Positions 10,056 to 30,187 of a stretch of DNA of 64,000 nucleotides are shown here, piece by piece; position 1 is the stretch's first letter, and each line of letters starts with the position of its first letter. Origin of the DNA: Mycobacteroides chelonae (GTDB lineage: Bacteria; Actinomycetota; Actinomycetes; Mycobacteriales; Mycobacteriaceae); NCBI RefSeq assembly GCF_016767715.1, contig NZ_CP050145.1, positions 2,976,001 through 3,040,000 on the forward strand. Reading direction: 5' to 3'. A program made the position numbers and the translations under genes. The notes beneath the pieces were generated by a model that searched no databases, had not been told where the DNA came from, and saw only the letters and a list, made by a program, of their open reading frames with translations.

Positions 10056-11267
10056 TCATTTATGGGCAAATTCCACGACTAGGTAGTATGACTTCGCGAA
10101 TCCCTTGCATATCGCTTGATCTGGACCATTGCCCCAGGTCGAGGGTGACCATTTTTCCACCGGAAAAGCAACATCACAGGCCTCGAACAAATCATTCTGA
10201 AACGCAACGTTGCACGCATGGTAGGTACTATCGTGGAAGTTGTTGTCTTCATGTTCATAGCACATATCATGTCGTGCACAGGAATAGGCGAAATCTGCTC
10301 CCGTGGGGTCGTCTTCTGACTTTGTGCAGTAGTCGTGGAGAGATTTTTTGTTCGGGTCTGTCACCTTGCTATCAGGATCATAAATATACCCGCAGGGCAT
10401 CATGAAGACTTTATCTCGACTGACCGATTGTCCAGGGTAGAAACTTGTGTCGCAGTTTCGATCAAATTGCTTGATCCTCTCAGGGTCGCATTTTCTACAG
10501 GTGCCGTCAGCACTGGGTATATCTCGCTGAAACCCCGTTAATTGAATACCGCTTCTAGTCACGCCGTCAAACCTCGAGGGAACAAAGGCAGAACTTGAAG
10601 CGCTCATCACACAATCCAGCATCCGATCCGTGTCTTGATTCCCGTCAGATGGTTCCGGCTCTTGCGTTGCCGATGGCTTCGACGTTTGAGGCTGTTGAGT
10701 TTGCGTTGGCGCCTCACTTGGCTGCTGCCCCTCCTGAGGCGACTGTTGCCCCTGCTGCGGTGAACCCTGCTGGGGCGCTTGATAGTCGGGGTTCGGTTCA
10801 CCCGGCCCCTGGGTGTATTCCGCCGGTCCATGATCGATCGGCTGCTGTTCTCCATTCGCCGCCCGCTGCCATGTGCCGTCTGCGTTTTGGCCCGGCTGCA
10901 GGCCCTGCTGCGGGCCATTAGCCTGCCCTGGCTGCTGGGGAGCACCCTGAGCTGGCGTGTTGTAGATGTTGACGCCGCCGTTCTGGTCCAACGGCGGCTG
11001 ATTGGCACCCTGGTAGTCCAGCTGCGACGGCATCGAGGGTGGCTGGAACTGGCTACCTCCTCCGGGAGGTCCAGTCATCCCGCCGCCACCGGGGCCAGTT
11101 GGCCCTGTAGGGTCGGCGCCCACGGTGGCGACTGTGGAAAACCCGCTACCCGGTTCAGTGTGATCACCTAGTACTTTGGCCCCACCTACGGCCAGAGCAG
11201 CGATCGCGATGACCGCAGATGCTCTACGTAACCCAATCGGCATGCGCCACTTATCACTCATGACCAT
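10056..11267 (-). CDS. Secreted Pro/Gln-rich protein with prokaryotic phospholipase A2 domain
   Basis: 403 aa. An AGGAAAGG ribosome site lies 7 bases before the ATG. An N-terminal hydrophobic helix (residues about 14-34) serves as signal or anchor. A long low-complexity linker (about 40-205) rich in Pro, Gln and Gly follows. The last 110 residues carry the group XIV secreted PLA2 signature: DYCTKSEDDPTGADF then SCARHDMCYE, with the catalytic pair His333-Asp334. This matches the pattern of the Streptomyces enzyme (D-x-C-T, D-x-P-x-G, C-A-R-H-D). The predicted activity is hydrolysis of sn-2 ester bonds of phospholipids outside the cytoplasm. Several Cys pairs suggest disulfides. Its stop overlaps an alternative start of the downstream membrane gene. 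Confidence 0.82.
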   Translation of the reverse strand: MVMSDKWRMPIGLRRASAVIAIAALAVGGAKVLGDHTEPGSGFSTVATVGADPTGPTGPGGGGMTGPPGGGSQFQPPSMPSQLDYQGANQPPLDQNGGVNIYNTPAQGAPQQPGQANGPQQGLQPGQNADGTWQRAANGEQQPIDHGPAEYTQGPGEPNPDYQAPQQGSPQQGQQSPQEGQQPSEAPTQTQQPQTSKPSATQEPEPSDGNQDTDRMLDCVMSASSSAFVPSRFDGVTRSGIQLTGFQRDIPSADGTCRKCDPERIKQFDRNCDTSFYPGQSVSRDKVFMMPCGYIYDPDSKVTDPNKKSLHDYCTKSEDDPTGADFAYSCARHDMCYEHEDNNFHDSTYHACNVAFQNDLFEACDVAFPVEKWSPSTWGNGPDQAICKGFAKSYYLVVEFAHK

Positions 11268-11376: not shown

Positions 11377-12636
11377 TCACTGGCAATACCTGTTGTTATT
11401 TGAGGGCAGCCTGCGGGTATCGGCCGCTGGCGTGATGGGCTGACACAGGGGCCCGGTGAGCATGTTGGCTTTAACCCAGGCCACCTCATCGCTCGCCACG
11501 TGCTGGCAGGCGTCATAGTCGTCGCCTTGCTGTCCGAATGTCGAAACGCAGTTGGTGGACATGTTGGCGAACAGGGTGTTGTTGCAGACATCCGTCGAGG
11601 TGTTCGACGGGGTGGCGTCCAGGCACATCTGCTGGCGCTGGCAGGACACGGTGAAGTCTGCCGCGCGCCCATCGGCGGACCGGAATTCGTTGGGTCCGCC
11701 CTGACAGCCACCGCTGTGCCGCTGTGCGTAGAGCGCCGGGTCAATGCCGGCGGGCCGATAAGTGCCTGCAGGGTCAGTAACGTAGTCAACAGGTTGGGTG
11801 ATCACCTGCGGCGCGCCGACTCCACCGGGCATGCCGCCCCAGTCCGCAGTCAGCGCGCCGCTGGTGGGTGTGTTTGAGGCACGGTAGGAGAGGGTGATCT
11901 CGATGGGGAAGGCGAAGATGTTGGCCTCGCCCAGGTTGATCAGAATGTTGGTCTGGTTCGGAAAGCCCGGACCGATACCCGGTGACACCGTGACGGGGGC
12001 ACCCTTGGAGTCTCGGGCCACCGGAATGGAGAACGTGCCGACGACCGTTGCAGGGCGACCTGGGTGAGGATCGGTTTCCACCAAGACGACATTGGTGCCC
12101 TGACGTAGGTGCGTGCCCTCAGGGATGCGCACCCCGACCTGCATATCCGACGGCGAGAAGATCGTCTTGCGACGAATCACAATGTCACCGCCGCCACCGG
12201 AGAATGGGATCACCTCGTAATCAACGTCGTTGGAGGTATAGGTGGCCCCGCCATCTCCGGACCAGGCCGCGGCTTGCAGCGTCATCTCGCCCGGTAGGTG
12301 GATCGCGATGTTCTTGCCGGCCCAGGTGGTCGGGAAGAAGATGCCGTCCTTGGCGAACATCGGCACCGTGAAGTTCGACAGCTCGCGTGCGGCCGCTAGA
12401 GGCTGGCCCATGCCGTTGCCTTCGCCCTGCGGGGCACTCGACGAGACTTTGGCTCCACCAATGTTGTTGATGCGCGGTGCATCCTGGGGCATCTCGCGCG
12501 GCGCTGGCAGCGGTGCAGGCGTCGGTACCGCCGGATCGGCATGTGCCCGAACGATTGCCGCACCCGACCCCTCGGCGGGTATCACAACCAACCCAGCAGC
12601 AAGAAGTATCAGCGCAATTCTGAAAACTTTAGTCAT
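11377..12636 (-). CDS. Secreted protein with degenerate PLA2-like C-terminus
   Basis: 419 aa; the ATG at 12636 overlaps the porin stop (TGATG). A signal peptide (residues about 1-35, ending near VRAHADP) precedes a Pro-rich segment and a large domain of unknown family with beta-rich character (about 75-300). The C-terminal 100 residues look like the PLA2 domain of the next gene: ADFTVSCQRQQMCLD aligns with the neighbour's C-x-R-H-D-M-C block and is followed by a similar Cys spacing. The catalytic His-Asp is Gln335-Gln336 here. It should therefore be inactive as a lipase and may bind lipid or act as a partner. It sits between the MspA-like porin and the active PLA2 gene, 109 bases from the latter. 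Confidence 0.7.
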   Translation of the reverse strand: MTKVFRIALILLAAGLVVIPAEGSGAAIVRAHADPAVPTPAPLPAPREMPQDAPRINNIGGAKVSSSAPQGEGNGMGQPLAAARELSNFTVPMFAKDGIFFPTTWAGKNIAIHLPGEMTLQAAAWSGDGGATYTSNDVDYEVIPFSGGGGDIVIRRKTIFSPSDMQVGVRIPEGTHLRQGTNVVLVETDPHPGRPATVVGTFSIPVARDSKGAPVTVSPGIGPGFPNQTNILINLGEANIFAFPIEITLSYRASNTPTSGALTADWGGMPGGVGAPQVITQPVDYVTDPAGTYRPAGIDPALYAQRHSGGCQGGPNEFRSADGRAADFTVSCQRQQMCLDATPSNTSTDVCNNTLFANMSTNCVSTFGQQGDDYDACQHVASDEVAWVKANMLTGPLCQPITPAADTRRLPSNNNRYCQ

Positions 12637-13370
12637 CACAGGTCTTTCGGCTCGCCGTAGACGGTTTGGGTGTCATTGCCGTTCTCGGTGCGGATCCGGA
12701 AGGTCGCGAACGATTGGATCTTGACCTGGCCGCCGCAGCCGTCGGCCTCCACGTTCTGGTTACGCACCTGTGAGACCGCATGCATGTTGCGGAAGTTGAT
12801 CCGGTCCATCGGCAGCTGCGCCAAACCGCCCGGCTTGAGCAGCACACGCATATAACCGCCGATGTGCTCCTGGGCACCCACCGAGGCACCACCGGAGACG
12901 CCGCCGAAACCGCCGCCCTGACCACCACCGCCGCCGGACCCGCCCTGCCCGCCGCCATACGCTCCGCCATACGCCTGCCCATTGAGCTGCTGGCTAAGCG
13001 TCAAACCGAGGTCACCGCCCAGTTCGACACCCGAGGAGGAGTCGGTGCGGCAGCCCACGAAGTACCCGGTCTCCAGCTGGGCATCCTGAATAACCGCCGA
13101 ACCCGCACCCGAGATCGTGGCCTCCGCGCGATACGACACCCGGGCTTGCCACGAGTTGCTTGCCCCCGCGATGTTGTCGATGTGATCGATCACCTCATTG
13201 GTCATCGTCAACCCGACCGTCCACCCGTCATCGGTCACGAACTGCTGATGCTGATCCGGCATCACCTGCGGATCGGCCAACGCGGGGGGCAGTGCGCTCA
13301 GCAGTGTGGCGGCAACCAGCGATGAGGTTGCGAGCGTCTTTCGTGTCGTTATGGGCACGAGCGACAGCAT
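12636..13370 (-). CDS. MspA family porin-like protein
   Basis: 244 aa with a signal peptide ending near LPPALADPQ. MspA landmarks are in order: DDGWTVGLTMTNEVIDH, the conserved central TGYFVGC and SSGVELGG, LLKPGGLAQLPMD, and the C-terminal VEADGCGGQVKIQSFATF through TQTVYGEP. MspA-family proteins are octameric outer-membrane channels or related envelope proteins. This one has a Gly-rich insertion (about residues 132-157, strings of GGG/QGG) where MspA has its rim and constriction loops. It is the first gene of a tight four-gene operon with two secreted PLA2-fold proteins and a membrane protein, which is unusual for a nutrient porin. No strong ribosome site is seen at the start. Confidence 0.82.
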   Translation of the reverse strand: MLSLVPITTRKTLATSSLVAATLLSALPPALADPQVMPDQHQQFVTDDGWTVGLTMTNEVIDHIDNIAGASNSWQARVSYRAEATISGAGSAVIQDAQLETGYFVGCRTDSSSGVELGGDLGLTLSQQLNGQAYGGAYGGGQGGSGGGGGQGGGFGGVSGGASVGAQEHIGGYMRVLLKPGGLAQLPMDRINFRNMHAVSQVRNQNVEADGCGGQVKIQSFATFRIRTENGNDTQTVYGEPKDL

Positions 13371-14631: not shown

Positions 14632-15489
14632 TCAACGCTTTTCCGCCTCCGCGAGCAGGCTATGGAGTGCCTGCCTGTCCGAATCAGTGACCGGGCTCTG
14701 CAGGATCAGGGTCAATGACGGGTACTGAACCAAGCGGAGCTGGGCAAGGTCCAGATGGATCTCGCCGACAAGGTGGTGACGGATGACGTGCCGCGGCTCG
14801 GTAAACGTCCCCACCTGATAGTCAGACCACCGCTCGCGGAAGTAGGGGCTGGATTCACTCAGCCGCGCCACCAATTGGGCTAGCTGAGAATCCTGGGGGT
14901 TACGGCCAACCACCGCACGGAATTGAGCGATCAGCGCCTGTGCACGCAGGTCCCAGTCGACGACGAGATCACGCAGGCCTGGGTCGTTGAAGAACAGCCA
15001 GAGCAGGTTGCGCTCTTGCGTGGGAATGGTTTCCAGCTCACGCCAGATCTCTCCGTACACCAGATTCCAGGCACAGATGTCGAAGCGTTGATCGATAACG
15101 CATGCGGCATTGGGCAGCAGGTTCGCGACTAAGCGCCCGAGGCGTGCGTCCAACTCCGACTCGTGAATGGGGTCAGGCAACGCATGTTGAGGCAGCGGGA
15201 GATTCGCGAGTGCACGCACGTGCCGGTGCGCGGCCTCCTCGAGGAGTAACGCCCGGGCAATGCTGTCGATCACCTGCGCAGAAGTGCTCACCACCCGCCC
15301 CTGCTCTAGCCACGTGTACCAAGCAAGGCCAACCCCGGCAAGCTGGGCAACTTCCTCTCGCCGCAGGCCTGGGGTGCGCCGTTTTCCGATAGTCTCCGCT
15401 AATCCGACGTCGGCGGGCTTGACGGCCGCCCGGCGCGCACGCAGGAATGCACCTAGTTCAGCGCGCCGCGCCAACTCGCCTCCCGACAT
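14632..15489 (-). CDS. XRE family regulator with MmyB-like ligand-binding domain
   Basis: 285 aa. An N-terminal helix-turn-helix (residues about 10-75) has the typical RRTPGLRREEVAQLAGV and WYTWLEQGR. An MmyB-type PAS-like domain (about 105-280) follows, with NAACVIDQRFDICAWN, LWLFFNDP and the terminal PSLTLILQSPVTDSD. MmyB-family regulators sense small hydrophobic ligands and commonly control an adjacent, divergently transcribed oxidoreductase or biosynthetic operon. Here the divergent neighbour is the 11-gene operon beginning at 15719, with 229 bases between the starts, so it is the best candidate for that operon's regulator. No clear inverted repeat was identified in the gap. Confidence 0.9.
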   Translation of the reverse strand: MSGGELARRAELGAFLRARRAAVKPADVGLAETIGKRRTPGLRREEVAQLAGVGLAWYTWLEQGRVVSTSAQVIDSIARALLLEEAAHRHVRALANLPLPQHALPDPIHESELDARLGRLVANLLPNAACVIDQRFDICAWNLVYGEIWRELETIPTQERNLLWLFFNDPGLRDLVVDWDLRAQALIAQFRAVVGRNPQDSQLAQLVARLSESSPYFRERWSDYQVGTFTEPRHVIRHHLVGEIHLDLAQLRLVQYPSLTLILQSPVTDSDRQALHSLLAEAEKR

Positions 15490-15718
15490 GCCAGCAACTT
15501 TAACTGAGTATTACTGCCACTCCTATGACCATTGCACTACTGGTTAGCCACCGGCCCCCTGCCCAGACTTGGCGAGAACGACCCCTGGCCGGGCCGCTCA
15601 CCCATAGGCACGTAGCGGACCGTACCGAGACAGTCACGCCTGTGTCCATGACGTAACGGTGCTGAATAGGAATTGCGAGACTATGGTTGGCGAACAGAAC
15701 TACCAGGAGGGGCTCGTG

Positions 15719-16546
15719 GTGCCGAAGAAGATCTTGATTGTCCTGTCGGAGTTCGGCTACTGGGGTGAGGAACTGGTCGGCCCCGCCGAAGTGTTCGACT
15801 CCGCGGGCTATGAGCTGACGTTCGCGACCCCGACAGGAAAGCGCCCCATCGCCCTCCCCCCCAGCCTTGACGAGAACTTTGTCGATCCGCCGCTCGGCCG
15901 CGCAGTAACCACCGCCGAGATGGCGGCCAAGGCGAAGGAATGGAATAACTCACCGCGCCTTGATAATCCGGTAAGCCTGCACCGATTGATTCCCGAGCGC
16001 CCCTACCTGAGCGATGTGAACTACCTACGGGCGCTCGAGAGGTATAACCAGGATCTTGCAACCGCGGTGGCGGCGTTGGTTTCCGGTTACGACGGCCTTC
16101 TCATCGTGGGCGGCAGCGGTCCCATCGTGGATTTGGCCAACAACGAACGCCTACATGCGCTCATCCTTGGCTTCGTCGCGGACGGCAAGGTAATCGCCGC
16201 CGAGTGCTACGGAGTTACCTGTCTAGCATTCGCTCGCGATTGGGGCACCAGACGCAGCATCCTGGAGGGCAAGCACGTCACCGGCCACCCCAAGGAATAC
16301 GACTACAAGGACGGGACCGGGTTCGTAGGTACCGACCTGAACATGGGGCCTCCCCCTTATCCGCTTGAGTACATCCTGCGGGACGCGACTGGCCCGGCAG
16401 GTGGCTTCCACGGCAACGTCGGTAGGCGGCTGTCGGCATTGGTGGACTATCCGTTTGTCACCGGCCGCTCTACTCCCGATTCCCAGCTGACCGGGCAGCT
16501 CGTCGTGGAGGTACTGGAACACGGATTGCGCCGCTATGGGTGGTAG
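15719..16546 (+). CDS. DJ-1/PfpI family protein (class I glutamine amidotransferase-like)
   Basis: 275 aa from a GTG at 15719 with AGGAGGGG eight bases upstream; a GTG at 15716 and an ATG at 15683 are alternatives. The fold landmarks are KKILIVLSEFGYWGEELVGP at the N-terminus, GYDGLLIVGG, and the nucleophile elbow AAECYGVTC with Cys163. The relatively long insertions between strands resemble the Hsp31/class III type of the superfamily. Members act as glyoxalases/deglycases, chaperones, hydratases or amidases on reactive carbonyls. First gene of the 11-gene operon; the next gene overlaps it by 11 bases. The presence of a second DJ-1 gene two positions on suggests a pathway handling keto- or aldehyde-sugars. 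Confidence 0.82.
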   Translation: MPKKILIVLSEFGYWGEELVGPAEVFDSAGYELTFATPTGKRPIALPPSLDENFVDPPLGRAVTTAEMAAKAKEWNNSPRLDNPVSLHRLIPERPYLSDVNYLRALERYNQDLATAVAALVSGYDGLLIVGGSGPIVDLANNERLHALILGFVADGKVIAAECYGVTCLAFARDWGTRRSILEGKHVTGHPKEYDYKDGTGFVGTDLNMGPPPYPLEYILRDATGPAGGFHGNVGRRLSALVDYPFVTGRSTPDSQLTGQLVVEVLEHGLRRYGW

Positions 16547-18140
16547 CCCACTGCGGCCCGCCCGCCGAGCGGTGGTGGAGCAACTTGAGGCGCAGGGCGT
16601 GCAATACGTCTTCGGCAACCCCGGCACCATCGAGCAAGGCCTCATCGACGAGATCGAGCATTCCGCCATCGCCTATGTGCTCGCACTGCAGGAGGCGGCA
16701 GCCATCGGCATCGCGGACGGGTACGCACGGGCAGGACAACGTTTGGCCGTCGCACAGCTTCACAGTGGCGTCGGCCTGGGCAACGGCATCGGCATGCTCT
16801 ACCAGGCGATGCGGGGAGGCAGCCCACTGCTAGTCCTCGTGGGCGAGGCTGGCCTGACCTTTGACGCCTTCGAGGCACAGATGGCTGCCGACTTGGTCGG
16901 CATGGCAAAACCTGTGAGTAAGAACGTTTTTCGTGTGTTACACCCACAATCCACACTGCGAGTGTTGCGCCGCGCCATCCAGACGGCACTTACCCCGCCA
17001 TGCGGGCCCGTTGTGGTAGTGCTGCCCGCGGACCTCCTCGACCAAGAGACCGACGAGGATGTCCGCGCGGTATGCCCCCCGGTCACCCGAGTCGCCCCGT
17101 CTGATGCGGTGCTGACGAAAGCCGTCGGCCTGCTCAATGTGCCCGGTCGCAAGGTGATCGTGATGGGAGACGGTATCACCGCCAGTGGCGCGCAGGCCGA
17201 GCTCGCCCGCGCAGCGGAGGCACTCGGCGCGGATGTGTATGGCGCCAACGATTCCGGGACCAACATGAGCAGCGAGAACCCCAGCTACCGTGGGCAGCTC
17301 GGCCATATGTACGGCCAGGACAGCACCCGGCTACTTGCCGATGCCCGGTCGGTTCTGATTGTCGGTACCTACGTCTTCCCCGAGGTGTACCCGGACCTGC
17401 ACTCGCCATTTCATCCGGACGCGAACATCGTGCACATCGATTTGGATGTGTCATCGATCGGGAAGAACTTTCCCGTAGACCTCGGGATTCTCGGTGACCC
17501 CAAATACAGCCTGGCGCGCTTACTGGCCATCCTCGGCCGGTTCTGTCCCGACCAAAAAGATGACGCTACACAGACTTTCACTCTTCCCGAGCTCACCAGC
17601 ACTTCACCGCTGGAGGCCGTCATCCGGTCAATCGCCGTGCAGGCGCGCCACCGCCTCGTCTTCGATGAGGCACTGACATGCTCCCCGCTCGTCACCCGCT
17701 ACCTGGCTTCACAGACACCTGGGGACTATCTGCTCACCCGCGGCGGGTCGTTGGGGGTCGGCATACCAGGAGTGGTCGGGGCCAAGTTCGCCTGCCCCAA
17801 TCGCGAAGTGATCGCCTTCACCGGCGACGGGGGTGCGATGTACACACCGCAGGCACTGTGGACCGCACACCGCTACGGGCTTGCCATCAAGGTGGTGATC
17901 TGCAACAACCAGCGATACAAGCTCCTCGATAACAACATCGAACACTACTGGCACACCCAAGGAACTCCGGAACACCAGCACCCCAGCTCTTTTGGGCTAG
18001 CGCCCTCAGTGAATTTCGTGAATCTTGCACTGTCGATGGGCATACAGGCGCAGCAGGTGGAAAAGGCAAGCGACGCCGAAGACGCCGTTACCGCGATGCT
18101 CAACCACGACGGCCCCTACCTCATCGACGCGACAGTCTAA
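16536..18140 (+). CDS. Thiamine pyrophosphate-dependent enzyme (acetolactate synthase/benzoylformate decarboxylase-like)
   Basis: 534 aa, with the three-domain layout of TPP enzymes. The N-terminal Pyr domain has the activating Glu in LALQEAAAIGIADGYAR. The central domain follows from about residue 185. The C-terminal PP domain carries the TPP/metal motif AFTGDGGAMYTPQAL through VICNNQRY. The length and motifs fit the acetolactate synthase/benzoylformate decarboxylase branch, which forms or cleaves C-C bonds next to a keto group. It lies between two DJ-1 genes and overlaps the first by 11 bases. Substrate not determinable; decarboxylation of a 2-keto acid or carboligation of a small aldehyde are both plausible. 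Confidence 0.85.
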   Translation: MGGSPLRPARRAVVEQLEAQGVQYVFGNPGTIEQGLIDEIEHSAIAYVLALQEAAAIGIADGYARAGQRLAVAQLHSGVGLGNGIGMLYQAMRGGSPLLVLVGEAGLTFDAFEAQMAADLVGMAKPVSKNVFRVLHPQSTLRVLRRAIQTALTPPCGPVVVVLPADLLDQETDEDVRAVCPPVTRVAPSDAVLTKAVGLLNVPGRKVIVMGDGITASGAQAELARAAEALGADVYGANDSGTNMSSENPSYRGQLGHMYGQDSTRLLADARSVLIVGTYVFPEVYPDLHSPFHPDANIVHIDLDVSSIGKNFPVDLGILGDPKYSLARLLAILGRFCPDQKDDATQTFTLPELTSTSPLEAVIRSIAVQARHRLVFDEALTCSPLVTRYLASQTPGDYLLTRGGSLGVGIPGVVGAKFACPNREVIAFTGDGGAMYTPQALWTAHRYGLAIKVVICNNQRYKLLDNNIEHYWHTQGTPEHQHPSSFGLAPSVNFVNLALSMGIQAQQVEKASDAEDAVTAMLNHDGPYLIDATV

Positions 18141-18152
18141 ACGGGAGCGAAT

Positions 18153-18749
18153 ATGGCGACACAGCGACCACTGAAGGGCACCGAGATTGGCGTGTTCATC
18201 GAGAGCGACTACATCTACCGCGAGATTCATTACTACGTCGATAGATTCGCTGAAGAAGGCGCCGTCGTGCGCCTCATCACCAGGCTCTGGAGCAGCACAC
18301 CGCCCACGTTCACCGACCACGACTTCCACATACCACTCGACCTGCCAATCGAGGACCTGCGGCCATTCCTGGGTGAGGGGCTAGCCCAGCTAGACGCCTT
18401 GATCATCCCCGGCGGCTTCGTTTCGGACAGGCTGCGCTACTCCGAAGTGCCGGGCGGTATCCCCCCGGCTCTGGAGCTGCTGCGCCAGGCTTTCGGCGAC
18501 AAGCGGATCGTCAAAGGTATTATTTGTCACGGGCTTTGGCTCTCGGCTTTGCTTCCCGAGCTGATCGCTGGCCGCCCTGTGACATGCCATAACAACCTCG
18601 TTGGCGATGCCCGGAACATGGGCGCTCATTACACCGACAGTGATCTGGTCGATGACGGCGATCTGGTAACTGCCCGCACCGCGGACCACCATCAGATTTT
18701 CACCGCCGCACTCATCGACAAACTCCGATCGACGAAAGGCCTGGTGTGA
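18153..18749 (+). CDS. DJ-1/PfpI family protein (second)
   Basis: 198 aa, the compact PfpI type. It begins GTEIGVFIESDYIYREIHYY, has LDALIIPGGFVSDRLRYSE and the nucleophile elbow GIICHGLWLSALL with Cys125, and ends with the dimer-side segment DGDLVTARTADHHQIF. A GGGAGCG ribosome site precedes the ATG and there are 12 bases to the previous stop. PfpI proteins are usually annotated as intracellular proteases, but many act on glycation adducts or small carbonyl compounds. It is unlike the first DJ-1 protein of this operon in length and sequence, so it is not a recent duplicate. Confidence 0.85.
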   Translation: MATQRPLKGTEIGVFIESDYIYREIHYYVDRFAEEGAVVRLITRLWSSTPPTFTDHDFHIPLDLPIEDLRPFLGEGLAQLDALIIPGGFVSDRLRYSEVPGGIPPALELLRQAFGDKRIVKGIICHGLWLSALLPELIAGRPVTCHNNLVGDARNMGAHYTDSDLVDDGDLVTARTADHHQIFTAALIDKLRSTKGLV

Positions 18750-18750
18750 C

Positions 18751-20613
18751 ATGGTAGAGACATACTCGGACTCGGTGATGGGCTATCTCGACGAGTTACA
18801 CGAGGACCACCTGACGCTGCGGGGCATCGACGGAGAGCTGCTGCGCCTAGAGATGAACACCCGCACCAGCGTCCAACGGCTGCGCAATCTCGGCGAGGAA
18901 TACGTCGACGGGACAGCCGATCTATTCGCCGGCCGGGTGCCGCAGAACGCGTTAATCATTGCCTACGGGCCGATCGTCCCCTACGAAAGCGGCACCAGGC
19001 GTTACGCCAGCACCATCACCATCGTCGGAGCACTCGACGGCAACCCCATCATGGAGCCCACCTGGTGGATCACGCAGATCACACAGATCGCCAACTTCTA
19101 TCGCAATGCACAGTTCGGCGACGGCCCCATCGACTTCCAGCAGTACCGCACCAACCTGGACCGCTCGGGCCGCAAGCACGGGGATATCCAGGAAACCGCG
19201 GTGCTGTCCCGGCTCATCTACGGCATGGCATCGTCCTTCTTGCTGACCGGCAACGATGACCATTTAACGGTGGCCACGGCGGGCTGCGCTTACATGCTCG
19301 AAAACATGCGGATGTCCGAACTTGCAGGGGAGCGCGATCCCTTCGGGAAGGAAACCCTCTGGTATCACCGTCTTGAGGTCACCCCCGGTCAGACAAACAA
19401 GATACTGGCCTCCCAGTTCCCGGACGACCGCGGTTCGATCCCCGCGTACGAACAGATCTACGCGCTCGCCGGCCTCACCCAGACCTACCGGGCTACAGGT
19501 GATCCCGCGCTCCTGGAGGCCATCCAGCAGACCGTCCGGCTCTTCGATATCTATTTCAAAGACCCCCTGCTCGAGGGGTACTACTCACACATCGATCCTG
19601 AGACCTGGGGTTCGCAATCATCGCGACTGGGGCAGAACAAGGCGAAAAAGAACTGGAACTCAAACGGCGATCATGCTCCGGCGTACTTGTTCAATCTCTA
19701 CCTGAGCACCGGCGACCCTCAATACCTGGAAATGCTCACCTACACCTTTGGCATCATTGCCACACACTTCCCGCAGAGCGGCCTGCGGACCCGTGTTGAG
19801 GAAACTCCTTTTGTACGTGAACGATTCAACGCCGACTGGACCGTCGACGAGAACTGGGGATGGCAGCAAGACCGCGCGGTCGTCGGGCACAACCTCAAGA
19901 TCGCGTGGAACTTCATACGGATGTCGGTGCTCTCCGAGGACCCTCGGCTACTCGGCTATGCCACGAGAATCGCGCACACCATGCCCAACTACGGGCTGGA
20001 CGTGCGGCGCGGTGGCTGGTACGACGTGCTCGAACGCGCACTGTTCGCCACCGACCGCTTCACCTGGCATGACCGGAAGGCTTGGTGGCAGCAGGAGCAA
20101 GCGATTCTGGCTTACCTAATCCTGGCGGCCCGCGTTGACCCCCTCTACGAAAACGAAGCGTTCGAGGCCGCGGCCTTCTACAACGCCAACTTCCTCGATC
20201 ACGATTTCGGTGGCGTCTTCCCCACCGTGCTGGCCAGCGGCATGCCCTACGGGGTAGGAGAGGAAGGCGGTAAGGGCTCGCATTCGATGGGGATGTACCA
20301 CTCGGCTGAGTTGTGCTACCTGTCAGCGGTTTACACCGCACTGATGCTCCGGAAGGAGCCACTGTATCTGTGGTTCAAACCCGCACCGGATCAGAACTTC
20401 CCGGGCAACATCCTCCGAGTAGCGCCCGACACACTGACGCAAGGTTCAGTCTTCATCGCGTCGGTGCTCGTCAACGGCGAGCTCTACGACAAGTACGACA
20501 GCGCCAATCTCACGGTGACGCTCCCCGAGTCCACAACGGGGCTCACCATCCGGGTGCGACTCGACAACGACCCCCGCCACTCCCCCTCCCTCACCCTGGG
20601 TATGCATGTCTAG
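18751..20613 (+). CDS. AGE family (N-acylglucosamine 2-epimerase-like) protein
   Basis: 620 aa. The central 400 residues have the alpha/alpha-barrel pattern of the N-acylglucosamine 2-epimerase/cellobiose 2-epimerase superfamily. Conserved blocks are EQIYALAGLTQTYRATGD, then DRAVVGHNLKIAWNF, then HDRKAWWQQEQAI, then GKGSHSMGMYHSAEL. In typical members the second block reads G-H-x-x-E; here the last residue is Lys, so catalysis may differ. Extra N-terminal (about 150) and C-terminal (about 80, beta-rich) regions make it longer than the usual 400 aa. The likely role is sugar epimerisation or isomerisation. It starts one base after the previous stop and its end overlaps GlgX by 8 bases. Confidence 0.7.
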   Translation: MVETYSDSVMGYLDELHEDHLTLRGIDGELLRLEMNTRTSVQRLRNLGEEYVDGTADLFAGRVPQNALIIAYGPIVPYESGTRRYASTITIVGALDGNPIMEPTWWITQITQIANFYRNAQFGDGPIDFQQYRTNLDRSGRKHGDIQETAVLSRLIYGMASSFLLTGNDDHLTVATAGCAYMLENMRMSELAGERDPFGKETLWYHRLEVTPGQTNKILASQFPDDRGSIPAYEQIYALAGLTQTYRATGDPALLEAIQQTVRLFDIYFKDPLLEGYYSHIDPETWGSQSSRLGQNKAKKNWNSNGDHAPAYLFNLYLSTGDPQYLEMLTYTFGIIATHFPQSGLRTRVEETPFVRERFNADWTVDENWGWQQDRAVVGHNLKIAWNFIRMSVLSEDPRLLGYATRIAHTMPNYGLDVRRGGWYDVLERALFATDRFTWHDRKAWWQQEQAILAYLILAARVDPLYENEAFEAAAFYNANFLDHDFGGVFPTVLASGMPYGVGEEGGKGSHSMGMYHSAELCYLSAVYTALMLRKEPLYLWFKPAPDQNFPGNILRVAPDTLTQGSVFIASVLVNGELYDKYDSANLTVTLPESTTGLTIRVRLDNDPRHSPSLTLGMHV

Positions 20614-22690
20614 CGATGCGCTAGTCGCACGGCCGGGTAAGGCGTACCCACTCGGCGCGACCTACGACGGCGCAGCGGGCACAAACTTCGCGCTGTACAG
20701 CGAGATAGCCGAGTCAGTAACACTGTGCCTGGTCGGGGCCCAGGGCGACGAGATCTCGGTGCCGCTGACCGAGGTGGACGGCGGTATCTGGCACGCCTAC
20801 CTGCCGGGGATCAGGCCGGGGCAGCGCTACGGGTACCGTGTGGCGGGCGCCTTCGACACCGCCCGCGGATTGCGCTGCGACCCTTCAGCCTTCCTGCTCG
20901 ATCCCTATGCCAAGGCCTTCGATGTAGGTGACCTTACAGACTCCCCGCACACGATGACGGGCGTTGTCATCGACCCCGCACGTTTCAACTGGGCCGGTGA
21001 TACCAAGCCTGATCGCCCGTACCACGAAACCATCGTCTACGAAGCACACGTCAAGGGCATGACGGCCGCGCACCCCGCCGTGCCTCATGGACTGCGCGGC
21101 ACCTACGCCGGAATGGCACACCCAGAAGTTCTTGAGCATCTAACAGCCCTAGGTGTGACCGCTGTGGAACTAATGCCCGTACACCAGTTCATGCACGATG
21201 GCTGGCTCCTTGATCGCGGACTGCGGAACTACTGGGGCTACAACACCATTGGGTTCTTCGCACCGCACGCCCAGTACGCGTCCACAAGTACCCCCGAAGA
21301 CGCCGTTGACGAATTCAAGGCGATGGTCCATGCCCTACACCAGGCAGGACTGGAGGTGATTCTCGATGTTGTCTACAACCACACCGCCGAAGGCAATGAA
21401 CTTGGGCCAACCGTGAGCTTCCGCGGTATCGATAACCCCTCCTACTATCACCTGGTCGCCGACGATCTCTCACGCTACGAAAACTTCAGCGGCACAGGTA
21501 ATACTCTCAATGCCGGCCAGCCTTCGGTGCTGCAGCTGATTATGGACTCGCTTCGGTACTGGGTGCTCGAGATGCACGTGGACGGCTTCCGGTTTGACCT
21601 AGCTGCCGCACTGGCTCGGGAAGTCCATGACGTCGACAAGTTGTCGGCCTTCTTCGACCTCGTTCAGCAGGACCCAGTGATCAGCCGCGTCAAACTGATT
21701 GCCGAACCGTGGGATAACGGCGCAGATGGCTACCAGATAGGCAACTTTCCCGCCCAATGGTCGGAGTGGAATGGGCGCTACCGGGACACCATGCGCGACT
21801 ACTGGCGGGGCCAGCTCAGCTCGCTGGGAGAGTTCGCCACCCGGTTCGCGGGCTCCTCAGACCTGTACGGCCCGTCTCGCCGCCGCCCCAGCGCAAGCAT
21901 CAACTACGTCACCTGCCACGACGGGTTCACGCTGAACGACCTTGTCTCGTACGACACCAAACATAACCAGGACAACCCTTCTAACGACGGGAATGACGAC
22001 AATCGGTCATGGAACTGTGGGACCGAGGGGCCCACAAACGACCCGGCCGTGCTGGCGTTACGGGCGCAGCAGCGCCGCAACTTCCTCGCCACCACCGTGC
22101 TCAGCCAGGGAACGCCCATGCTGTTGCACGGCGACGAATTTGGGCGGACCCAGCAGGGCAACAACAATGCCTACTGCCAGGACTCCCCCCTGGTATGGAT
22201 GGACTGGTCGCTCACGGCTGTCGACTCGGACCTACTCGAGTTCACGCGGCGGGTCATAGCTCTGCGCGGACGCCACCCGGTGTTCCAGCGCCGGCGATTC
22301 TTCCGCCCTTGCCCCACCGCCAGTTGCGCAGAGATCACCTGGCTCACGCCTGCGGGCGTGGTGATGCGTGAGAACGATTGGGACGCCGACTGGGCCAAGG
22401 CACTCATGGTCCAGCTCAACGGAGATGCCATCCCCGAGCCGGACAGCGCGGGCCTGCCGATACGGGACGACTCCTTCCTGCTGTGCTTCAACGCGCACTG
22501 GGAGAACATCGAATTCAACTTGCCAGCAACAGAGCGCGGGCGGTCCTGGGCGGTGGCGCTCGATACCGCCCACCCACTCGGACGAGGCAGCCATACCGCA
22601 AGCAGCTCAGCTGCGGTGCCGGCCCGCTCGCTCATAGTCTTCGTCGCACTGCAAAAACCGGACACTATCGATACCAGGAGCACGACGTGA
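20606..22690 (+). CDS. glgX: Glycogen debranching enzyme GlgX/TreX-type (GH13)
   Basis: 694 aa. An N-terminal carbohydrate-binding domain (about 10-130, from [20 protein letters not shown]) is followed by a GH13 barrel. All catalytic residues are present: the nucleophile Asp331 in DGFRFDLA, the acid Glu367 in IAEPWDNG and Asp439 in [10 protein letters not shown], with the usual [16 protein letters not shown] later. GlgX/TreX hydrolyses alpha-1,6 branches of glycogen-type glucans. It lacks glycogen-operon neighbours (glgB, treY, treZ) and sits inside an unrelated-looking operon, so it may supply a glucan-derived sugar to the AGE and GMC enzymes, or act on an unusual glucoside. Its stop overlaps the next GTG start. 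Confidence 0.9.
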
Positions 22691-23622
22691 CGCCACAAGA
22701 CAATGACCGCCCGACAGTTGGCCTGTTCGCCGTCAATATGCAGCCGACCGTTCATCCGGCCGCACTCGGGGAAATTGCCACCCTGGCAGAAGAACTCGGA
22801 TACGACTCCCTCTGGGCTGGTGAGCACGTGGTCCTACCAGACTCCCCTGAATCCGGCAGTCCCTTCGATCCGGCACTCGAGCTCGTCGACCCGCTGATCA
22901 CTCTCGCCCATCTGTCAGGCGTGACACGAACCATCAAGCTGGCCACCGGAGTAGTTATTTTGCCACTGCATAATCCGCTGCTTCTTGCCAAGCAGCTCGC
23001 CTCACTTGATGTGCTCTGCAACGGGCGGCTTATCTTCGGTTACGGCAACGGATATCTTGAGCAGTCTTTCGATGCGGTCGGAGTTCCCTTTGCCGACAGG
23101 GCTTCCCGCAGCAATGAGTACCTGAGGGCCATGCGGGCACTCTGGCATACCGAAAAGCCCGCCTACACAGGCAGCCACGTGAGCTTCTCACAAGTCGACG
23201 CGCATCCGCGCCCCCTGCAACGCAGCCTCCACACCGTCGTCGGCGGTGCGTCCACGCGCGCCCTACGCGAGGCCGCCACCCATGCCCATGGCTGGTACGC
23301 GTGGGGCATGACTCCCGATGCACTTGCTGAGGCCAAGAATGCGCTAGACACCATGGTCCGTAACAACTCTCGCGCAGAGGAGCTGGGCCGAATCCAGATC
23401 ACGGTGACCCCGCCTCAGGGTGCTACCGTCGGCGCAGCGCAAATCGACGCCTTTGGCGCCGCCGGCGCTGACCGCATCGTGCTCTTTCCCCCAGATGGCC
23501 TAACGATTGCTGAATTACGTGCCTTTATCCGGGCACACGCACCAGCGGCGATCGGCGCGATGCCGGCGCCCATATCCACGCCCCGCCACGAGGAGAGCCA
23601 TGGGCACAGCACAAATCCGTGA
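22687..23622 (+). CDS. LLM class (F420-dependent type) oxidoreductase
   Basis: 311 aa from a GTG at 22687 overlapping the GlgX stop (GTGA), with an AGGAGC ribosome site. It has the luciferase-like monooxygenase barrel pattern: AALGEIATLAEELGYDSLWAGEH at the N-terminus, KLATGVVILPLHNPLLLAKQ, and LIFGYGNGYL. The closest type I can name is the mycobacterial F420-dependent Rv2161c-like group. Such proteins reduce or oxidise alcohols, imines or enones using F420, or hydroxylate with FMN. It is one of two redox enzymes in this operon, with the GMC protein two genes on. The substrate is unknown. Confidence 0.85.
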   Translation: MTPQDNDRPTVGLFAVNMQPTVHPAALGEIATLAEELGYDSLWAGEHVVLPDSPESGSPFDPALELVDPLITLAHLSGVTRTIKLATGVVILPLHNPLLLAKQLASLDVLCNGRLIFGYGNGYLEQSFDAVGVPFADRASRSNEYLRAMRALWHTEKPAYTGSHVSFSQVDAHPRPLQRSLHTVVGGASTRALREAATHAHGWYAWGMTPDALAEAKNALDTMVRNNSRAEELGRIQITVTPPQGATVGAAQIDAFGAAGADRIVLFPPDGLTIAELRAFIRAHAPAAIGAMPAPISTPRHEESHGHSTNP

Positions 23623-24016
23623 GTTCGTCGACCGGTGGTTCAGCCTCCTCAGTGCGCATGCACCGGTGGGCGAGCTGACGGCCTGCCTAGCAGCCACGGG
23701 GCTGGAGATGATATTCCCCGAGCGCACGCTTCGCTCCATCGACGACTTCACGTCCTGGTACGCAGCCGTCGGCGAGGCGTTTGCCGACCAGGACCACGAT
23801 GTCGAGCGAATCGAAATACAGCACCGCCCCGACGAGAACCTGTACCGCCTCGGAGTCAGCGTCGTATGGCGGGCGACCAATGTCGCCGACGGGAAGCTCA
23901 TCGCGCAGCGCGCGACACAAGCATGGGTTCTTCAGTACGACAAAGCTTCCGGGGAGCCGCGCATTCAGAAGTATTACGTCGTCAAACTGATAGACCTGGA
24001 GACAGGCACCTCATGA
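23600..24016 (+). CDS. SnoaL-like/NTF2-fold protein
   Basis: 138 aa from the ATG at 23600, with GAGGAGAGCC upstream; it overlaps the previous gene by 23 bases. The cone-shaped NTF2/SnoaL pattern is visible: an N-terminal helix IREFVDRWFSLL, then SIDDFTSWYAAVGEAF, then strands with HRPDENLYRLGVSVVWRAT and WVLQYDKASGEPRIQKYYV. SnoaL-like proteins act as cyclases, isomerases or hydrolases in natural-product pathways, or have no known activity. Its position between an F420-type oxidoreductase and a GMC oxidoreductase suggests a small-molecule step. Confidence 0.75.
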   Translation: MGTAQIREFVDRWFSLLSAHAPVGELTACLAATGLEMIFPERTLRSIDDFTSWYAAVGEAFADQDHDVERIEIQHRPDENLYRLGVSVVWRATNVADGKLIAQRATQAWVLQYDKASGEPRIQKYYVVKLIDLETGTS

Positions 24017-25590
24017 GAACTGCACCGCTGTTCGTCGATTACGTGGTTGTCGGAGCCGGCTCATCGGGATGCGTTGTTGCAAGCCGACTGAGCGAAGACC
24101 CGGCCTGCTCGGTGCTGGTTATCGAGGCCGGGGGCTGGGACGATCACCCTGAGATTCATGATGTCAGCCTCGCCTCAGCATTCGCGCTGTGGGATGCCGC
24201 GGGCCCGCCGGACATCGACTGGGGCTACGAGACCCTGCCGCAGGAATATCTCGGAAACCGCACCATACCCATCGCACGCGGCAAGGTTGTGGGCGGCTGT
24301 GGATCGATCAATGCCCTCGTGTGGGTACGAGGAAACTCCCGCGACTACGACCACTGGGCTCAAACAGGTGCAGCGGGCTGGTCCTACGCCGACGTACTTC
24401 CTTACTTCAGGCACTGCGAGGAGTTCCTTGGGCGCAGCACTGCATGGCGCGGCGGCGATGGGCCGGTCAGCGTGTGGAAACACGCCAATCTGACACCTGC
24501 GGCAGAGGCGTTTATTCGAGCCGCCGACGAAATTGGTTACAGCACAGACGATCGTGATTACAACGGCGAGCACCAAGATGGGTTCGGATTCGGGTATCAA
24601 ACCAATCGCACCAAGATCGGCACGCGGTGCAGCACCGCAACGGGATACCTGCACCCCATCCGTCGGCGGAGCAATCTCACGGTGCTCACCCGATCACAGG
24701 TCACCCACATCGGATTCACCGGCGGTGCCGTAAAAACAGTCGAGTATCTCACGGACGGCCAGCGGCGCACGGTACACGTCGACCAAGGCGCAATACTCAG
24801 TGCTGGCGCGTTCGAGACCCCAAAACTACTGATGCTCTCGGGTATTGGACCGGCAGCGGAACTGAAAGAACACGGCATTGATTGCCTACATCACACGCCG
24901 GAGGTCGGCCAGAACCTGCAAGACCACATTTTCGTGGGCGTGACCTACGACTCCAAGATCGCATACCCAGATGCGGAGCTGGTTTCCGAGGCAGGTTTGT
25001 TCACCAGAACCACGCTGCAGAATACCGACTCACCCCCCGACCTGCAGATGACGTTCGGTACTGGTAAGTTCCTTCCCCCCAATGCTTCTTCAGATCAGCT
25101 GGCCGGCCCTGGATTCACCTTCGGGCCGGTGGCCATTCAGCCGCACAGCAGAGGAGAGGTGCTTCTCGCTAGCGCCGACCCACTGGCGAACGCCCGGGTG
25201 CAGCCGCGGTACCTGTCTGATCCCGCCGATACCGCTGTGCTGATCGAAGGCATCGAGCTGGCGCGGGATATCGTTCATGCCAGCGCATTCGATGAACTTC
25301 GTGGTGCCGAACTTGCACCTGGCCCGTCGATGACCGACAAGAGCGAGCTCGCCACATTCATCTCTGCCGCGGCTAGCACGTTATGGCACCCCGTAGGCAC
25401 CTGCCGCATGGGCAGTGACGATGGCTCAGTGGTCGACCCCACGCTTCGGGTGCACGGCGTGGAGAATCTCTGGATCGCTGATGCATCGATCATGCCGTCG
25501 ATCACGTCCGGCAACACCCATGCCCCGTGCGTCATGATTGGCGAACGAGCCGCCGAATTCATCAAGAAGGCAAGGAGACTCAATGACTGA
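24013..25590 (+). CDS. GMC family FAD-dependent oxidoreductase
   Basis: 525 aa; ATG overlaps the previous stop (ATGA). The FAD-binding motif VVGAGSSGCVVASRLSED opens the protein, with GMC signature 1 in RGKVVGGCGSINALVWVRG and signature 2 in GAFETPKLLMLSGIGP. The catalytic His is in LWHPVGTCRMG. The second active-site position reads GNTHAP, that is His, where choline-dehydrogenase-like members usually have Asn; glucose-oxidase types have His. GMC enzymes oxidise alcohols or sugars to aldehydes or keto sugars. Next to an AGE-type epimerase and GlgX, a sugar or glycoside is a reasonable substrate guess. The next gene overlaps by 8 bases. Confidence 0.9.
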   Translation: MRTAPLFVDYVVVGAGSSGCVVASRLSEDPACSVLVIEAGGWDDHPEIHDVSLASAFALWDAAGPPDIDWGYETLPQEYLGNRTIPIARGKVVGGCGSINALVWVRGNSRDYDHWAQTGAAGWSYADVLPYFRHCEEFLGRSTAWRGGDGPVSVWKHANLTPAAEAFIRAADEIGYSTDDRDYNGEHQDGFGFGYQTNRTKIGTRCSTATGYLHPIRRRSNLTVLTRSQVTHIGFTGGAVKTVEYLTDGQRRTVHVDQGAILSAGAFETPKLLMLSGIGPAAELKEHGIDCLHHTPEVGQNLQDHIFVGVTYDSKIAYPDAELVSEAGLFTRTTLQNTDSPPDLQMTFGTGKFLPPNASSDQLAGPGFTFGPVAIQPHSRGEVLLASADPLANARVQPRYLSDPADTAVLIEGIELARDIVHASAFDELRGAELAPGPSMTDKSELATFISAAASTLWHPVGTCRMGSDDGSVVDPTLRVHGVENLWIADASIMPSITSGNTHAPCVMIGERAAEFIKKARRLND

Positions 25591-26401
25591 GCCCGGACCA
25601 GACCCTCAATCTAGGCTCTATCGGCGCTTCCTGGAGTTGTTCAACGCCGGGCGCTACGAGGATTTATCGACGGTTGTTGATGAGCGGTTCATCGCCCATC
25701 ACGCAGGTTTTGGAAATACCCATACCTTGAGCGCCTACATCGACAGCCTGCGCACGGCCAGAGAAGCCCTAGAGCTCCGAGCCGAACTCGATTACGTGGC
25801 CGCGTTCGACGACCGTGTGATCACCCGATGCCGGTTACTGGGGCGGCATGTCGGCACCTTCCTGGGCTACGCACCGACGGGAAGGGCCGTTACCTGGGAG
25901 ACCCTCGAGATATGGCGAGTGGCCAGCGGCAAGTTCGTCGAACGCTGGTCACAGGATGACCTATACGGCCTGTCCCAGCAGCTCTCCCCCGACGGCGCCA
26001 ACGTGGCACTCATTAAGCGCCTCAACGACGTTGTCAACGAGCGTCGGTACGGCGACATGGACGCACTGTTCTCTGCAGAGTTCGTGGACCATAACCCCGC
26101 GTGGAGCGCGCGCAATCTGGATGAACTGAAAGACATCATCAGTTCTGCCCACAAGGCGCTGGACTTCACCTCGAACCAGGATCTTATCTACCCCGCCGAC
26201 GGCGGGAAGGTTGTCATCCACATCACGTTTACTGGCCGCCATGTGGGGCCGTTCCTCGGACGCCAACCAACAGGCCGAGCCGTGTCCTGGACGAGCATCG
26301 AGGTATACCAGCTCTCCGACGGACTAATCGCCGAACGATGGGTGCAAGCCGATACCGCGGGCCTCATGAAACAACTCGGTGTCCCGCTTCCGGGCGCCTA
26401 G
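25583..26401 (+). CDS. Tandem SnoaL-like (ester cyclase-type) protein
   Basis: 272 aa from the ATG at 25583, with AAGGAGACTCA upstream. It has two SnoaL-like domains in tandem. Each has an N-terminal helix (RRFLELFNAGRYEDL; IKRLNDVVNERRYGDMDAL), a HH or DH pair (FIAHHAGFG; FVDHNPAW), and a late strand set (GRHVGTFLGYAPTGRAVTWE; GRHVGPFLGRQPTGRAVSW) ending in ERW. This is the pattern of the SnoaL/ester-cyclase family, normally about 130 aa as a single domain, so this protein is an internal duplication. Polyketide-type aldol cyclisation is the classic role; the actual reaction here is unknown. Confidence 0.8.
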   Translation: MTEPGPDPQSRLYRRFLELFNAGRYEDLSTVVDERFIAHHAGFGNTHTLSAYIDSLRTAREALELRAELDYVAAFDDRVITRCRLLGRHVGTFLGYAPTGRAVTWETLEIWRVASGKFVERWSQDDLYGLSQQLSPDGANVALIKRLNDVVNERRYGDMDALFSAEFVDHNPAWSARNLDELKDIISSAHKALDFTSNQDLIYPADGGKVVIHITFTGRHVGPFLGRQPTGRAVSWTSIEVYQLSDGLIAERWVQADTAGLMKQLGVPLPGA

Positions 26402-26414
26402 AGAGGGAACCAAC

Positions 26415-26714
26415 ATGCCTTCATTTCTGATGAACATCAACGTCAAACCCGGCCAGGAGGATGCAGCGCTGGCACAGCTTGCCGAGATACAGCGGCTGGC
26501 CCGGGCCGACGCCGGGAATCAGTTGTTCCTGTGGCTCCATCACACAACTGACCCGACGCGGTTCACCCTCTGCGAACAGTGGGATACACAAGCAGACCTC
26601 GACAAGCACCTCGTGAACATCTCGCCGGCCTGGGACCGGTTCACTCCACTGCTCGCCGGAACACCTGTCAGCGAGCCGGTAGCGCCGGTGACCGAGATCG
26701 ATCCACAAAGATGA
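26415..26714 (+). CDS. Antibiotic biosynthesis monooxygenase (ABM) domain protein
   Basis: 99 aa from the ATG at 26415, preceded by GAGAGGGAAC. It is a single ABM/dimeric ferredoxin-like domain: FLMNINVKPGQEDAALAQL, then HHTTDPTRFTLCEQWDTQADLDKHL, with the usual length. ABM-domain proteins include cofactor-free quinone-forming monooxygenases, haem degraders and small quorum-type proteins. Within this operon a cofactor-free oxygenation or structural role is possible. Its last four bases overlap the VOC gene start. Confidence 0.82.
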   Translation: MPSFLMNINVKPGQEDAALAQLAEIQRLARADAGNQLFLWLHHTTDPTRFTLCEQWDTQADLDKHLVNISPAWDRFTPLLAGTPVSEPVAPVTEIDPQR

Positions 26715-27160
26715 GCGTGTCATTCGTCAGATGGTCACACGTTGCGCTCAATTGCCGGGACCTGGCCGCGACTGAGCATTTCTATTCCGCCTGGTTCGGG
26801 TTCACCCGGTCGCGGGTGTTCGAGTCTCCATACCGCACAACAATATTTCTGAGACTCGGCGACGTGTACCTCGAACTGTTCGGCGGGGTATCAGTGGATA
26901 CTCGGGTCGCTTTGAGTAGTTCAGCAGACGGCCCACAACACCCCGGGTCCGTGCGCCACATCGCATTCCAGGTGGATGACGTCGACGCACTACTTACGAA
27001 AATGGGGGCCGCAGCGGTCGTGACACTCGGTCCGCTGGATTTCGATCAGTACATTCCCGGTTGGCGGAGTGTGTGGCTATCCGATCCGGACGGCGTCACC
27101 GTGGAGGTAAGCCAGGGGTACCGAGATGTTCCAGAACCAGGCAAAGCCTTGCTGGACTGA
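26711..27160 (+). CDS. VOC family protein (glyoxalase/extradiol dioxygenase fold)
   Basis: 149 aa; ATG overlaps the previous stop (ATGA). Paired beta-alpha-beta-beta-beta modules are visible: SHVALNCRDLAATEHFYSAWFGF and YLELFGG in the first, then RHIAFQVDDVDALLTKMGA and VWLSDPDGVTVEVSQG in the second. The metal-ligand pattern His, Glu, His, Glu (H in SHVALN, E in YLELF, H in RHIAF, E in TVEVS) is complete, so it should bind a divalent metal. VOC enzymes isomerise, epimerise, cleave or oxygenate small molecules. Last gene of the 11-gene operon. Confidence 0.85.
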   Translation: MSVSFVRWSHVALNCRDLAATEHFYSAWFGFTRSRVFESPYRTTIFLRLGDVYLELFGGVSVDTRVALSSSADGPQHPGSVRHIAFQVDDVDALLTKMGAAAVVTLGPLDFDQYIPGWRSVWLSDPDGVTVEVSQGYRDVPEPGKALLD

Positions 27161-29672: not shown

Positions 29673-29690
29673 CTGCCTGTGCTTCTTGTG

Positions 29691-29762
29691 TGGTCCCGGC
29701 TGGGTTCGAACCAGCGACCCCTCGCGTGTGAGGCGAGTGCTCTTCCACTGAGCTACGAGACC
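29691..29762 (-). tRNA. tRNA-Val(CAC)
   Basis: 72 bases. The acceptor GGTCTCG pairs with CGGGACC, discriminator A, CCA not encoded. The anticodon stem CTCGC/GCGAG encloses the loop CTCACAC, giving anticodon CAC. The T loop TTCGAAC is canonical. Its 3' half is repeated at 8711-8771, so it is the likely integration target of the island to its left. Confidence 0.95.
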
Positions 29763-29930
29763 GCATGTTGATCGTTGATGGCTGATCAACCGAGGTGAAA
29801 GGCTAGCACGAGACTCCGGAAACGCCGCAGTCCGGCCACCGACGGGCCGCGCACGCAAGGGATTTGTGAATAAACCTTCCGTTCGACTACTGTTTCAACT
29901 CGCACCGGGTGACGATCTCATCCGTTGCGC

Positions 29931-30003
29931 GCGGATGTAGCGCAGTTGGTAGCGCATCACCTTGCCAAGGTGAGGGTCGCGGGTTCGAATCCCGTCATCC
30001 GCT
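29931..30003 (+). tRNA. tRNA-Gly(GCC)
   Basis: 73 bases. The acceptor GCGGATG pairs with CATCCGC, discriminator T. The anticodon loop TTGCCAA gives GCC; T loop TTCGAAT. First of three tandem tRNA genes; CCA is not encoded. Confidence 0.95.
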
Positions 30004-30029
30004 CGAAGGGGTAGACAAGCATCCCTAGC

Positions 30030-30103
30030 GGTGGAGTGGCCGAGTGGTGAGGCAACGGCCTGCAAAGCCGTGCACACGGGTTCGATTCCCGTCTCCACCT
30101 CCA
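30030..30103 (+). tRNA. tRNA-Cys(GCA)
   Basis: The acceptor GGTGGAG pairs with CTCCACC, discriminator T, followed by an encoded CCA (30101-30103). The anticodon loop CTGCAAA gives GCA. It lies 26 bases after tRNA-Gly. Confidence 0.95.
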
Positions 30104-30112
30104 TAAAGACCC

Positions 30113-30187
30113 GCGCGATTAGCTCAGCGGGAGAGCGCTTCCCTGACACGGAAGAGGTCACTGGTTCAATCCCAGTATCGCGCACCA
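30113..30187 (+). tRNA. tRNA-Val(GAC)
   Basis: The acceptor GCGCGAT pairs with ATCGCGC, discriminator A, followed by an encoded CCA (30185-30187). The anticodon loop CTGACAC gives GAC. It lies 9 bases after tRNA-Cys and is probably one transcript with it. Confidence 0.95.

Follow-up and report, generated by a model that had tools for sequence, protein, structure and literature searches.

An enzyme-rich, regulator-free variant of the icfG-type gene cluster in Mycobacteroides chelonae

Eleven genes that lie at positions 15719-27160 of a 64,000-nucleotide stretch of Mycobacteroides chelonae DNA (NZ_CP050145.1, 2,976,001 to 3,040,000; hereafter the window) form an undescribed version of a known gene cluster, regulator-free and enzyme-rich. 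The operon may represent one form of an enzyme cassette that occurs in scattered bacteria, is tied to alpha-glucan (glycogen) metabolism and yields a small metabolite dependent on carbon supply or stress, a reading that stands a little short of an even chance. As comparison of related loci shows, the core of the cassette comprises two DJ-1 proteins (DJ-1a and DJ-1b), a TPP enzyme, an AGE-fold protein of the GHNLK type and a glucan-active GH13 enzyme, with NTF2/SnoaL, GMC and VOC proteins as frequent partners and LLM, SnoaL and ABM proteins as rarer ones.

The known cluster is the icfG operon of Synechocystis sp. PCC 6803 (slr1852-slr1862), which, in the available parts of the reports, encodes an AGE protein (Slr1855), STAS proteins (Slr1856 and Slr1859), GlgX (Slr1857), the IcfG phosphatase (Slr1860) and a kinase (Slr1861) (PMC8670252, PMC12329169). 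According to the accessible text, icfG mutants show effects both on glucose and under low carbon (PMC12329169). The AGE gene of that operon is described as sharing it with the GlgX gene; in the window the two are neighbours (18751-20613 and 20606-22690), and relatives of both window proteins sit in icfG-like operons in many loci. A preliminary description of the window had termed the operon unassigned. This holds for the whole set, for which no described pathway was found in the literature, but the AGE-GlgX part corresponds to the published operon, which the available text discusses for its regulators while giving the AGE protein no product (PMC8670252, PMC12329169). The two operons differ in that the icfG regulators (STAS, kinase and phosphatase) are not matched in the window, and in that DJ-1a, TPP, LLM, GMC, SnoaL, ABM and VOC proteins are not mentioned for slr1852-1862 in those parts of the reports, a comparison made by description only.

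Relatives were chosen by the AGE protein alone, with one genome per species, and the best 80 of at least 575 confirmed relatives were kept. The main counts refer to the 66 loci that span 20 kb or more, the other 14 of the 80 being shorter and left out; matches are those of tblastn at E 1e-5, and the counts for the small NTF2/SnoaL-like protein (NTF), the XRE regulator and a response-regulator/Pyr_redox_2 fusion may include paralogues. GlgX is matched in 65/66 loci, DJ-1b in 55/66, and DJ-1a and TPP in 38/66 each. Among the partners, VOC is matched in 17/66 loci and GMC and NTF in 15/66 each, the NTF matches being weak. Twelve control genes from the same window behave differently, with eleven found in 0/66 loci and one in 4/66. 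Among the 40 loci whose DJ-1a exceeds 50% identity, 39 have the start of the TPP gene no more than 1.3 kb from DJ-1a. At least six of the eleven families occur together in 20 of the 80 loci, a co-occurrence that the preliminary description had suggested looking for in other genomes. The core is found in Actinomycetota, Bacteroidota, Pseudomonadota, Deinococcota and Cyanobacteriota, and on plasmids too. Since this five-gene core recurs across phyla and the window control genes do not, the grouping exceeds chance, and the proposal that the genes do not co-occur elsewhere was rejected. There is good support for the core being a functional unit. As it recurs next to glycogen genes in distant bacteria, it has the look of a genuine side branch of glucan metabolism and not of genes assembled at random.

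Low genome counts at the level of genus, phylum and order show that the cluster is rare and scattered. Within the genus, AGE (E up to 1e-40) and DJ-1a (E up to 1e-50) are each present in 3 of 297 genomes, and these are the same three; within the phylum the two likewise coincide, in 2 of 396 genomes. Both counts include the host genome; without it, they share 2 of 296 and 1 of 395 genomes, respectively. The chance of two independent genes hitting the same two of 296 genomes is 2e-5. Across the order, 5 of 348 genomes have AGE (E up to 1e-100), again with the host included. A megablast search of a plasmid collection with the operon returned 7 records, none of which covers more than 9% of it. The rarity of the cluster in the genus, the varying gene content around AGE and the lower guanine-plus-cytosine content of the region (0.60 at 8-34 kb versus 0.66 at 34-64 kb of the window) would also fit loosely linked accessory genes that gathered in an island and share no joint pathway. 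Such an island is very unlikely, given the close pairing of DJ-1a with TPP in 39/40 loci, the joint presence of AGE and DJ-1a in the same genomes, and the existence of DJ-1-AGE and AGE-STAS fusions.

Regulatory genes accompany the cluster in many relatives. STAS2-like proteins are matched in 62/66 loci, STAS1-like proteins, a HATPase kinase and a SpoIIE phosphatase in 39/66 each, and the response-regulator/Pyr_redox_2 (thioredoxin-reductase-like) fusion in 38/66. Examples of this fusion adjoin the cluster at L081:1182-3167 (-) and L009:13454-15115 (+). When STAS1, STAS2, HATPase, SpoIIE and the fusion protein of locus L081 were used as queries (tblastn, E 1e-3), none gave a match in the whole window. 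Instead of the icfG-type kinase and SpoIIE-phosphatase genes found near the cluster in 39/66 relatives, the window has a divergent XRE regulator gene with an MmyB-like ligand-binding domain (14632-15489, minus strand; PF17765 at 140.5 bits, HTH_31 at 43.5 bits). Relatives of this regulator with 50-51% identity adjoin the cluster in L097, L003 and L004, and a second kind of MmyB-type relative is present in 14/66 loci.

The closest arrangements come from the same order and genus. Locus L097, from the same order, carries VOC, ABM, SnoaL and LLM genes on one strand and, on the other, the XRE gene, NTF, DJ-1a, TPP, DJ-1b, AGE and GlgX, for a total of ten of the eleven families plus the regulator. 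The Saccharothrix loci L004 and L003 have ten and nine of the families, respectively. A close relative of the window SnoaL protein was found in 3 of 37 genomes searched (covering 38 of the 80 loci), all of them Saccharothrix; by coordinates it lies inside the AGE locus in L003 and L004, and the third lies about 5.5 kb past the AGE-locus piece, if on the same contig. Because the two units stand apart in L097, the window operon looks like a joining of the two, as we infer from gene order. Another genome of the genus (L101) has a nine-gene run on one strand that comprises AGE (36% identity), DJ-1b, GH13, DJ-1a (56%), TPP, NTF, SnoaL (71%), ABM (67%) and VOC (67%), and a third (L102) has AGE, DJ-1b, a weak GH13 match and DJ-1a. 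In a further genome of the genus, the matching place has none of the operon genes except a shortened VOC relative with 85-88% DNA identity (L105:13695-14000, corresponding to window 26796-27126). Recent insertion into a virgin site found no support, as this remnant makes loss as possible as gain; it hints that the operon was once present at that site and was then lost.

The unit formed by LLM, SnoaL, ABM and VOC in L097, where an SDR gene lies on the same strand and an MFS gene nearby, is also what one would expect if a sugar released from glucan were converted by SnoaL, ABM, LLM, GMC and VOC into a secreted or signalling metabolite, as in a small natural-product cluster. A KS-AT-ACP polyketide synthase adjoins the cluster at L051:17828-21127 (-), and its gene family is present in 11 of the loci that were clustered. 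This explanation is nevertheless unlikely: the core is common to photosynthetic and freshwater bacteria and stands alongside central-carbon regulators, and neither a scaffold-building nor a transport gene turned up in the window operon, as the preliminary description had already observed. No characterised natural-product cluster with the same gene set was found in the literature.

Returning to the proposed tie to alpha-glucan metabolism, the window GlgX (20606-22690, +) passes the NCBIfam equivalog cut-off (TIGR02100, 898.1 bits against 640.9) and has the GH13 motifs, including TCHDG, which presumably hold the catalytic residues. Further glucan enzymes have relatives in the loci, namely GlgE in 16/66, GlgB in 14/66 and GH63 in 7/66, and any of GlgE, GlgB, GH63 or TreS is present in 23/66, these counts being made without control genes. 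The preliminary description had proposed a link to glucan, with a putative keto-sugar product, and together with GlgX in nearly every locus these relatives indicate that it was right in direction; the core likely acts on glucan-derived sugars. As judged by pairwise identities, the window GlgX shares 61-65% identity with a second GlgX from the same genome and at most 46% with GlgX proteins of other clusters, which places it in a different lineage by sequence. In L101 a GH13 protein takes the place of GlgX; its CBM48 and Alpha-amylase_C domains are those of a branching enzyme. This lineage shift and the branching-enzyme-like protein of L101 suggest that the cluster retains a glucan enzyme but draws it from changing lineages.

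The AGE-fold protein (18751-20613, +; PF07221) was called an epimerase in the preliminary description. Its model has the (alpha/alpha)6 barrel fold of the family, but the label is weakened by an invariant substitution of lysine for glutamate. Where the epimerase motif reads GHxxE, the window protein has GHNLK (H380, K383; alignment of 36 sequences, with model and fold match), and the lysine is present in 80/80 loci and in all 120 AGE proteins listed of 4438 relatives. Four solved epimerases (9l8i/3wkf, 1fp3, 8h1k and 8bry) have glutamate at this position, which we take to be catalytic in the AGE/cellobiose 2-epimerase family. The window protein thus differs by this lysine from the AGE superfamily (D-mannose isomerase, cellobiose and N-acylglucosamine 2-epimerases), and its model, compared by VIA-align over the top 1000 Foldseek hits, predicts extra N- and C-terminal beta regions. 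AprG, titled in the PDB as a transaldolase of apramycin biosynthesis, also has the AGE fold; the likeness is one of fold, with 11-12% identity and only 335 residues, and no paper on the AprG mechanism was among the literature matches listed.

AGE is joined to other domains in several relatives. DJ-1-AGE fusions are represented by P0109 and P0114 among the 120 listed proteins, and P0107, P0117, P0118 and P0120 are listed with both AGE and STAS domains. A C-terminal STAS domain is present in 24 of 79 closed AGE frames, with proteins of about 700-720 amino acids (e.g., L009, L030, L085 and L087); 14 frames of about 605 amino acids merely overlap the next gene and were not counted as fusions, and L046 has no closed frame. 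A bolder and distinctly unlikely proposal is that the core, present in at least five phyla, is a new alpha-glucan side pathway in which the AGE-fold protein is not an epimerase and would use a Schiff-base lysine to cut or join sugar carbon-carbon bonds, feeding the DJ-1 and TPP proteins, and in many relatives would be switched directly by its own or a neighbouring STAS domain. If this were true, partner switching would control an enzyme, beyond sigma factors.

For the carbonyl chemistry and the product of the pathway, we infer the following scheme. The GH13 enzyme would open glucan branches, and the AGE-fold enzyme would act on the released or reducing-end sugar, possibly through the invariant lysine. 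Both DJ-1 proteins, together with the TPP enzyme, may then process a carbonyl or dicarbonyl product and form or cleave a carbon-carbon bond, after which LLM, GMC, SnoaL, ABM and VOC would oxidise, reduce or isomerise the product to a small metabolite, presumably made upon a change in carbon supply or stress. The TPP protein (16536-18140, +; PF02775, PF02776, PF00205) has the three TPP domains that benzoylformate decarboxylase and acetolactate synthase likewise possess. Its closest solved relatives in the PDB are benzoylformate decarboxylases, but it falls far short of the NCBIfam cut-off for these (NF005485, 256.4 bits against 493) and is under every cut-off among 25 listed of 53 families. Nearly all of 50 relatives retain E53 and H76, and a second active-site histidine of benzoylformate decarboxylase is replaced by asparagine in the alignment. 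In DJ-1a (15719-16546, +; PF17124, PF01965, ThiJ_like/DJ-1_PfpI), Glu18, Cys163 and His190 are present in at least 97% of 46 sequences, and in the PfpI-like DJ-1b (18153-18749, +; PF01965), Cys125-His126 is conserved across 52 sequences.

DJ-1b matches the PfpI/YhbO deglycase subfamily model with a score below its cut-off, and the VOC protein (26711-27160, +; PF00903, 46.7 bits against 20.6) has a glyoxalase fold with E55, H83 and E132 conserved in 22 sequences. These features would suit a defence against carbonyl or solvent stress, in which DJ-1, VOC, GMC, LLM and TPP proteins clear reactive aldehydes and ketones, the glucan genes supply carbon or are co-regulated, and there is no dedicated product. 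An aldehyde dehydrogenase gene near the cluster in L081 points the same way, as does slr1854 of the icfG operon, which the available part of one study lists among the general stress proteins that butanol induces (PMC3726282). Stress defence is rather unlikely, for it accounts neither for an AGE protein with a fixed lysine nor for the near-constant presence of GlgX.

Several observations weigh against the cassette as a glucan-linked pathway. The slr1852-1862 genes are repressed by salt, not induced, in the accessible text (PMC8670252), although slr1854 goes up with butanol; the salt repression also counts against stress defence. LLM, SnoaL and ABM are rare in the loci (4/66, 3/66 and 2/66, respectively), and the window GlgX, which belongs to the type native to the host, could be a later insertion that shares no function with its neighbours. 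No SigB-type promoter, scanned for with a consensus, was found upstream of DJ-1a in 36 actinobacterial loci. In most cyanobacterial loci DJ-1a and TPP were not found within 10 kb around AGE; this may reflect a spacing like that on a Nostoc plasmid, where both lie about 14 kb from AGE. A literature search found no activity for the AGE, DJ-1 or TPP protein from any such cluster, in the sources as available, and the available part of a 2024 review of alpha-glucans does not mention epimerase, icfG, anti-sigma, PfpI or SCO7338.

All eleven frames are open and on the plus strand, and the spacing between neighbours, in gene order, is -11, +12, +1, -8, -4, -23, -4, -8, +13 and -4 bases, so the greatest overlap is 23 and the greatest gap 13 bases. 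The tightly packed, same-strand row described earlier is confirmed by these measurements. Its description as surely one transcript has to be softened: the spacing makes a single transcript likely, but scans gave no signal above shuffled sequence for promoter-like sites (1 found versus 3.1) or terminator-like sites (7 versus 7.6). No inverted repeats were found in 15440-15760, and DJ-1a has alternative starts at 15659, 15683 and 15716. Pfam or NCBIfam supports the names of ten of the eleven genes. Besides those given above, these are an LLM oxidoreductase of predicted F420 type (22687-23622; TIGR03619, 207.3 bits against a cut-off of 166.9), a GMC oxidoreductase (24013-25590; PF00732 and PF05199, under all NCBIfam cut-offs), a two-domain SnoaL protein (25583-26401; PF07366 in two stretches) and an ABM-domain protein (26415-26714; PF03992, 46.4 bits against 23.1). 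The eleventh, NTF (23600-24016), was absent from the title of the preliminary description and its one match, to SnoaL_2, falls below threshold (E 0.019, 16 bits against 27). The host genome is a single contig of 5,061,177 bases.

To the left of the operon, the window encodes a prokaryotic phospholipase A2 domain protein (10056-11267, -) and an MspA-family porin (12636-13370, -), and to the right are tRNA genes for Val, Gly, Cys and Val (29690-30187). PknH_C protein or proteins are also encoded in the window, as is a single open frame of 3047 amino acids (54776-63919, -).

Being regulator-free and enzyme-rich, the operon is a convenient system for learning what the icfG-type enzymes make. Once solved, the pathway would account for the recurrence of this gene set in cyanobacteria, Streptomyces, Bacteroidota and Deinococcus, and the reason for the coupling of glycogen breakdown to carbon and stress signals could emerge.

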